A DNA stretch of 64,000 nt, taken from positions 248,001 to 312,000 of the forward strand of contig NZ_AFPU01000001.1 in NCBI RefSeq assembly GCF_000220175.1, read 5' to 3'. Within the stretch, counting starts at the first letter, position 1. Each line of letters opens with the position of its first letter. The position numbers and the translations under genes are program-made. A model generated the notes under the pieces. It saw nothing but the letters and a program-made list of their open reading frames with translations. It made no database searches and was not told the DNA's origin. This document shows, piece after piece, positions 33,666-35,503 of this stretch. This DNA comes from Nitrosarchaeum koreense MY1 (lineage in GTDB: Archaea > Thermoproteota > Nitrososphaeria > Nitrososphaerales > Nitrosopumilaceae).

Positions 33666-33956
33666 TTAGAGCCAAGATGAATATCCACCATCAAGTGTAA
33701 TTGCATAAAATCCTTCTTTTGTCAACTCGTCAGCTGCAATGTTTCCACGATACCCAGAACTACAGTAGGTACAGATTTTCTTGTCTCGCATATCTTCGAT
33801 CTGTTTTTTCTTTGTATTGCGAATTGTCAACCCTAAAGGCATGTGAATAGAGTCTTCAATTATACCGCCTTTTAATTCATCTATTTCACGAACATCAATT
33901 ATTACAAAATCATTTTTTTGAGACATTAGCTCCTTTGCTGTAATCTTGTCTGCCAT
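33666..33956 (-). CDS. Single-domain rhodanese-like protein
   Basis: 96 residues: 'FVIIDVREIDELKGGIIEDSIHMPLG' (in part) and the active-site loop with C65 (CSSGYRG), the sulfurtransferase cysteine. C62 is nearby (CTYC). It transfers sulfane sulfur or acts in stress sensing; the partner is not evident. Single gene with convergent neighbour at its 3' end. Confidence 0.88.
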   Translation of the reverse strand: MADKITAKELMSQKNDFVIIDVREIDELKGGIIEDSIHMPLGLTIRNTKKKQIEDMRDKKICTYCSSGYRGNIAADELTKEGFYAITLDGGYSSWL

Positions 33957-34450: not shown

Positions 34451-34463
34451 TTTAAATTATATA
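34451..34463 (+). promoter_or_regulatory. TATA box for the Met-rich protein
   Basis: TTTAAATTATATA is centred 28 nt before the ATG at 34485, which decides the start over two upstream in-frame candidates. Confidence 0.6.
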
Positions 34464-34484
34464 CAATTAAAGACAATTATCTGT

Positions 34485-34967
34485 ATGGCAAGTACGCCTA
34501 TTTGGATTGCAATCATTATTGGTGTTTTCTTTGTAGGAATTGGTGTAAGTTATGCACATTTTGCCAGCACTTATGATCCAATGTCTATGAAATTTCAAAA
34601 TCAAGAATTGTTTAATCAAATGATGTCAAATAATCCAAAGATGTCTCAACAGTGGATGAATTCAGATATGATGAATCAACAACAAATGATGAATGATCCA
34701 CAGTTTAGGCAACAAATATTTCAACAAATGATGCAAAACCCCGATGATATGATGGAATGGATGGCAAAAGATCCTCAACATGTTGAACAGATGTCAAAGA
34801 TAATGAAAGAAGATCACATGTTTATGTCAAAAATGATGTCTACTATGATGAATGATCCGGATTTGAGATTGCAAATGGTGGGTCACATGTCAGAAAATCC
34901 AGAGGCATTCAAAGAAATGATGAACATGATGGGTTCTGGAATGAACCAACAAATGATGCATCCATAA
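34485..34967 (+). CDS. Methionine-rich single-pass membrane protein
   Basis: 160 residues: one N-terminal membrane helix (6-26) followed by a soluble domain that is about one fifth methionine (33 Met by my count), with MM pairs (QMM, DMM, KMM, TMM, NMM) and few His. Met pairs of this density are typical of copper(I)-binding extracytoplasmic proteins (known in bacterial copper resistance); here it is an inference. Upstream in-frame starts at 34395 and 34437 are less likely because the TATA box lies between them and 34485. Confidence 0.7.
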   Translation: MASTPIWIAIIIGVFFVGIGVSYAHFASTYDPMSMKFQNQELFNQMMSNNPKMSQQWMNSDMMNQQQMMNDPQFRQQIFQQMMQNPDDMMEWMAKDPQHVEQMSKIMKEDHMFMSKMMSTMMNDPDLRLQMVGHMSENPEAFKEMMNMMGSGMNQQMMHP

Positions 34968-34975
34968 AAAAATAA

Positions 34976-34992
34976 TTTTACATTTGTAAAGT
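34976..34992 (+). promoter_or_regulatory. Palindromic operator copy 1 before doxX
   Basis: ttttacatttgtaaagt contains the perfect 14-bp palindrome TTTACATTTGTAAA (34977-34990) and the core TACA-TT-TGTA. The same 17 bp occur again at 35020. Confidence 0.7.
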
Positions 34993-35019
34993 ATCCATAT
35001 TATATTTCAGTTTAGTATA

Positions 35020-35036
35020 TTTTACATTTGTAAAGT
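35020..35036 (+). promoter_or_regulatory. Palindromic operator copy 2 before doxX
   Basis: Identical 17-bp copy, 44 bp after the first (about four helical turns), with TATA-like sequences (TATTATATTT, TAGTATATTT) lying between the two. Confidence 0.7.
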
Positions 35037-35080
35037 CTATTGTTTTACTATCTCCACTTTTTAGAATATCTGAAGAAAAA

Positions 35081-35503
35081 ATGAACGTAACCCAACAAGT
35101 CACAAAAATAAATAGACTCCATGAGATAACCTACTGGGGAATAAGAGCATCAGTAGGAGTAATCTTTATCGTATATGGATTGCAGAAATTCAATCCAATA
35201 TGGAAAGATTATCTTATTGGATTTGGATTGCCGCCAGAACTGCAAATCCCAGTAGCATTGGCAGAAACTATTGGCGGAATATTCCTAATTGCAGGATTCA
35301 TGACTAGAATTACAGGAATAATATTTAGTGTGATTCTACTTGATGCAATATTTCACATTAGATGGGAAAAAGGATTTTTCATATCTCAAGGAGGCTGGGA
35401 TTATGATCTTGCATTACTTGCAATGGTTCTTTTTGTTCTAGTTACAGGTTCAGGTAAGATATCCATTGCATCAAAAGTGAAGATTCCACACCTTCTTCAC
35501 TGA
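35081..35503 (+). CDS. DoxX-family membrane protein
   Basis: 140 residues, four membrane helices. DoxX signatures: 'WGIRASVGVIFIVYGLQKF', 'IPVALAETIGGIFLIAGFMTRITG' (in part), 'HIRWEKGFF...GGWDYDLALLAM'. DoxX-like proteins are linked to thiosulfate:quinone oxidoreductase subunits and to thiol or oxidative-stress complexes. Two identical palindromes precede it, so its expression is probably controlled by a dedicated repressor. ATG start preceded by GAAGAAAA. Confidence 0.88.
   Translation: MNVTQQVTKINRLHEITYWGIRASVGVIFIVYGLQKFNPIWKDYLIGFGLPPELQIPVALAETIGGIFLIAGFMTRITGIIFSVILLDAIFHIRWEKGFFISQGGWDYDLALLAMVLFVLVTGSGKISIASKVKIPHLLH

Follow-up and report, generated by a model that had tools for sequence, protein, structure and literature searches.

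The two repeats upstream of doxX in Nitrosarchaeum koreense MY1 very probably serve as operators for a thaumarchaeal metalloregulator with AsnC-type HTH and TRASH domains that corresponds to CopR/CopT of other archaea, and doxX and a DsbD-YHS-glutaredoxin operon would be switched by copper through this regulator. The regulator class and the operator form are already known from other archaea; what appears to be new is the operator with a large predicted regulon in ammonia-oxidising archaea, the membership of a doxX clade in that regulon, and the persistence of the regulator without CopA. Ammonia-oxidising archaea depend on copper, and a tight 14-bp motif together with a named regulator gives a testable predicted regulon across many genomes, bearing on copper-gene control in these organisms. 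A DoxX protein of unknown function is at the same time placed in copper/thiol stress.

The window, i.e. the whole stretch of 64,000 nucleotides that was analysed, contains doxX, the proposed target gene, at 35081-35503 (plus strand), and its 140-aa product matches the DoxX family profile PF07681, in agreement with the name given to it in an earlier sequence-only reading. A 96-aa rhodanese-domain protein is encoded 1.1 kb from doxX (33666-33956, minus strand). By sequence scan, the 113-bp intergenic gap upstream of doxX (34968-35080) holds two copies of ATTTTACATTTGTAAAGT, namely the distal operator O1 (TTTACATTTGTAAA, 34977-34990), the position of which is kept before orthologous doxX genes, and the proximal operator O2 (TTTACATTTGTAAA, 35021-35034), which is found at about -51 to -70 before every doxX gene of the window gene's clade (10/10). 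The identical stretch of both copies comprises 18 bp (34975-34992 and 35019-35036) with a spacing of 44 bp. The sequence-only reading had recognised the two identical elements 44 bp apart, albeit with a length of 17 bp, and had seen a perfect palindrome in each, which is true for the perfectly inverted arms TTTACA/TGTAAA of ATTTTACATTTGTAAAGT but not for the central TT, which is not self-complementary; relatives mostly carry TTTACAATTGTAAA, and this is a true palindrome. Exact TTTACANNTGTAAA occurs five times in the one-contig window genome (G000; 1,607,695 bp) versus once for the reversed control pattern, and two of these five sites are in the doxX gap, where about 0.00014 would be expected in a gap of this kind by a model of the composition of the AT-rich spacers nearby. 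The twin repeats before doxX are real and not due to chance. The bare core TACANNTGTA shows no significant excess within the window (3 seen versus 1.3 expected), and therefore the flanking TTT/AAA matters.

Another exact site of the genome, at 135915, lies in the divergent promoter between the HTH-TRASH regulator gene and the DsbD-YHS-glutaredoxin operon. The exact operator TTTACATGTGTAAA (G000:C1:485841-485854; L161:4842) is found upstream of a 394-aa ORF without Pfam match and downstream of YnfA-like genes; it may mark one more target or be a chance occurrence. The one at G000:C1:12841, also exact, is inside a GTP-binding elongation/initiation-factor-like gene and was set aside as a likely chance match. 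Sites with one mismatch were also treated as chance, because their number is close to that of the control pattern (33 versus 30) and nearly all of them are intragenic.

The regulator, a protein of 142 aa (G000:C1:135458-135883, minus strand), was found by profile search of the genome, and its gene is 147 kb away from doxX. The N-terminus is an AsnC-type HTH (PF13404, 47.2 bits versus a cut-off of 27, E=2e-12), and the PDB matches of the protein are to the HTH part of Lrp/AsnC proteins. A full-length Lrp/AsnC regulator is ruled out, as the Lrp RAM ligand domain PF01037 (AsnC_trans_reg) has no match in the protein, in which the HTH is followed by a linker and the TRASH domain. This C-terminal archaeal TRASH domain (PF08394) scores at the cut-off (27.0 versus 27) or over it (28.8), and its cysteines, CxxC and CCxxC, are invariant across 17 aligned members. 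Judged by these profile matches, the domain plan is that of archaeal CopR/CopT. The divergent operon encodes DsbD_TM, a YHS/TRASH-like mini protein of 45-56 aa and a glutaredoxin-like protein. In 30 relatives, a P1B copper ATPase is encoded beside or divergent from the regulator, whereas the window genome has DsbD as divergent partner instead, and no CopA was found in this genome.

The association of site and regulator was followed in 150 Nitrosopumilaceae genomes, 61 with the regulator and 89 without. The mean number of exact sites per genome is 4.7 (control 0.87) in the former and 1.4 (control 0.72) in the latter (Mann-Whitney p=6e-11), with no difference in the control-pattern counts between the two groups. 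The regulator's own start is preceded by a site in 25/30 loci of the family, and in other families of the class, 9/18 loci of orthologues show an exact site 47-59 bp upstream of the start. There are also two HTH-TRASH groups without an operator before their own gene, one with five loci in one clade of the family (L067-L070, L073) and one with six loci in another family (L170-L173, L175, L179), in which either the control has changed or the protein binds elsewhere.

Homologues of doxX are found in 135 of the 150 genomes. In all ten genes with an identity of 66% or more to doxX of the window, the operator precedes the matched start by about 51-70 bp, and it is found before none of the next 20, more distant genes. 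The conservation of the palindromes before doxX, named beforehand as a check, thus holds for the whole clade and does not reach these 20. The ten operator-bearing genes form one monophyletic clade (support 100/100), and all ten genomes have the regulator; among them are Nitrosarchaeum ECS25A1, Nitrosopumilus SS_bin_47 and Nitrosotenuis chungbukensis MY2, the last of which has two sites 44 bp apart like the window. The regulator gene adjoins doxX in three genomes (G023, G080, G122) and is close to it at the loci L019 and L020, at the latter next to a Met-rich protein like that of the window. Two doxX homologues with in-frame stops are apparent pseudogenes (G130:C1:46798-47208 and G110:C11:28333-28629), and both genomes are without the regulator.

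In site-rich genomes, the sites cluster as islands around the regulator. The genome G041 (1,645,259 bp) has about 15 exact sites within 23 kb, in an island with genes for multicopper oxidases, a blue-copper protein, Met-rich, DsbA-like, DsbD, glutaredoxin, HtrA, MsrQ-like and ZIP-like proteins. In the islands examined, 73/75 exact sites are intergenic versus 22% expected (p=3e-45, with a few loci from near-relatives that are not all independent). The first genes after the sites include the regulator itself (10), Met-rich proteins, HtrA, DsbA and copper ATPases (TIGR01511 CopA, with HMA or YHS leaders and a CPC motif), and genes of CueO/CopA-type multicopper oxidases are also preceded by a site. 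Regulator and copper ATPase strongly co-occur (43/61 regulator-bearing genomes versus 4/89 of the others, p=1e-18), and 30 of the 33 adjacent regulator-CopA pairs are divergent. The sequence-only reading had suggested a link to copper and a search for sites near copper genes of relatives. The regulator has a metal-binding TRASH domain, and the same operator stands before CopA and multicopper oxidases in relatives; homology and gene company lend good support to the proposed copper link. Published copper-limitation motifs of N. viennensis do not match the site, and the papers searched describe no HTH-TRASH operator in ammonia-oxidising archaea.

The Met-rich membrane protein that had been noticed just upstream of doxX is indeed encoded there (34485-34967, plus strand), and a residue count gives 33 Met in 160 aa of this membrane-anchored protein. 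Its leader is of the type found in those Met-rich proteins of relatives that stand under the operator. The gene has no operator of its own, neither exact nor with one or two mismatches. Just 5' of it, at 34457-34484 of the window, there is only a degenerate half-site TATACAATTAAAG with 4 mismatches, whereas the relatives stand behind exact sites.

When 54 non-redundant target promoters are aligned on the site, a common TATA-like box appears at +10 to +17, with a peak of T 76%, A 69% and T 67% at +15 to +17, and the distance from the site end to the ATG is commonly 37-38 bp. Upstream of doxX, the TATA-like sequences described previously beside the repeats are one box 9 bp downstream of each site: TTATATTT at 35000-35007 (plus strand, +10 to +17 from the O1 end) as putative distal promoter, and TTTACTAT at 35044-35051 (plus strand, +10 to +17 from the O2 end) as putative main doxX promoter, with a start expected near 35073. 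As O1 and O2 each have such a box at the distance seen in the aligned promoters, the gap looks like two tandem operator-TATA modules, and the putative transcript start of the first module would fall near O2. The 30-bp spacer between the tandem operators (34991-35020) carries TTATATTTCAG, which is shared by the doxX promoters of the window and of Nitrosotenuis MY2 (G071; L094) and by the regulator/dsbD promoter of G058 (L162:2996-3053), as would be the case if a single composite promoter module had been used repeatedly. Among tandem sites, a spacing of 43-44 bp is more frequent than expected (8/20, spotted post hoc), and a helical phasing with an overall 10.5-bp periodicity is not significant (p=0.40).

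CopR of P. furiosus recognises TTNNCAWWWTGNNAA, which adjoins the BRE on the upstream side. In vitro, the protein is a repressor of its own gene and an activator of copA, and with Cu and Ag it loses affinity for DNA; copR and copA are a divergent pair (PMC7830388). Since the TATA-like box lies at +10 to +17, the operator stops immediately before the BRE, which is also the arrangement in P. furiosus, and the doxX site directly upstream of the BRE/TATA region has the position at which CopR activates copA. By this analogy, a copper-induced, direct activator-like role is somewhat favoured, and the rest falls to simple repression or a dual role. A closer TATA at the regulator's own promoter than at the targets, which would point to repression, is weakened as an argument, because the difference is a few bases only. 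We infer that the HTH-TRASH protein binds the sites, that copper is its ligand, and that control goes in the direction of induction by copper. The regulator would bind TTTACAnnTGTAAA directly upstream of the BRE/TATA of doxX and likewise bind its own divergent regulator/dsbD promoter, Cu(I) held by the TRASH cysteines (CxxC...CCxxC) would alter its grip on the DNA, and copper stress, or the thiol stress that copper drives, would in this way turn on both doxX and the DsbD-YHS-glutaredoxin operon.

In the window genome and 17 other regulator-bearing genomes, no copper-translocating P-type ATPase was found. It may tentatively be proposed that these genomes, including G041, possess an exporter-less envelope copper defence under the regulator, consisting of Met-rich copper-binding proteins, multicopper oxidases, thiol repair by DsbD/DsbA/glutaredoxin, and a dedicated DoxX clade. 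If true, organisms whose energy metabolism relies on extracellular copper enzymes would here cope with copper stress in a different way.

As to other explanations, the HTH-TRASH protein could be the right regulator with mercury, silver, zinc or a thiol/oxidant as signal, and the regulon would then be an envelope thiol-repair system. The partners in the window genome are DsbD, a glutaredoxin-like protein and DoxX in the absence of CopA, relatives add DsbA, HtrA and the MsrQ-like gene, and DoxX has elsewhere been associated with oxidative and with sulphur stress. However, the targets repeatedly include copper ATPases, multicopper oxidases and Met-rich proteins, and the co-occurrence of regulator and CopA is strong, which makes another signal unlikely. 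It is quite improbable that another regulator shares the targets with the HTH-TRASH protein: the G041 island does contain a DtxR-like gene, and a few genomes keep sites although they have no HTH-TRASH gene (some still hold 4-6), but in different families of the class the site accompanies the HTH-TRASH gene itself, and it resembles the proven CopR motif of P. furiosus. Even less can be said for a winged-helix repressor of the BlaI/MecI/CopY type, to which the sequence-only reading had assigned the sites. The older CopY/BlaI core is likewise TACAnnTGTA, and the pneumococcal cop also has two tandem operators before a gene, but PF03965 has no match in the window genome and is above the cut-off in only 10/150 genomes of the family, 8 of them outside the ten operator-bearing doxX genomes, i.e. 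there is no co-occurrence, and where relatives show matches, these are weak winged-helix cross-hits. In addition, the outer base on either side of the window sites TTTTACATTTGTAAAG departs from the CopY consensus in its refined form, RNYKACANNTGTMRNY (T for R, G for Y; PMC7253601). Gene content and refined consensus thus lead to the rejection of this family, and what stands of the former proposal is an operator, a regulator encoded outside the window, and the copper link. Finally, a chance AT-rich coincidence, or an RNA feature or terminator of the Met-rich gene, has practically no probability left, for although O1 starts 10 bp past the stop of that gene and AT makes up about 75% of the spacers nearby, only ~0.00014 sites are expected per gap, a hairpin loop would have only 2 nt, and the reading is refuted by the conservation of the site, which is kept before doxX also where the upstream gene differs.

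Preferring the CopR/CopT-type operator, the system can be compared to known ones. Like bacterial CopY/CopR, BlaI and MecI (PF03965), it has the core TACAnnTGTA and tandem operators, but there is no such gene here, the 16-base refined operator does not fit, and the protein family is another one. A DoxX membrane protein is also found in the bacterial GIG (Cupriavidus/Legionella), bufferin and HvfX clusters, there in gold/copper-responsive operons, whereas the archaeal doxX is stand-alone under the proposed TRASH regulator, has only a weak similarity to the HvfX model NF050144 with a score under the cut-off, and, in a non-exhaustive look at the neighbours, no DUF692/DUF2063/DUF2282-like partner was noticed beside it. 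With CopR (Pyrococcus furiosus/Thermococcus) and CopT (Saccharolobus), the regulator shares the HTH_AsnC-type and TRASH domains and, in relatives, the often divergent orientation to a P1B copper ATPase, and as in the archaeal cop systems, the half-sites are TTnnCA/TGnnAA (here TTTACA/TGTAAA), directly upstream of BRE/TATA, with a site before the regulator's own gene. Unlike in P. furiosus, the half-site spacer has 2 bp instead of 3 bp and the consensus TTTACAnnTGTAAA is much tighter; unlike in archaeal CopR/CopT, there is no C-terminal His region. The window genome furthermore differs from the archaeal cop systems in being without any CopA, and the predicted targets are wider here, comprising doxX, DsbD/Grx, DsbA, multicopper oxidase, Met-rich proteins and HtrA.
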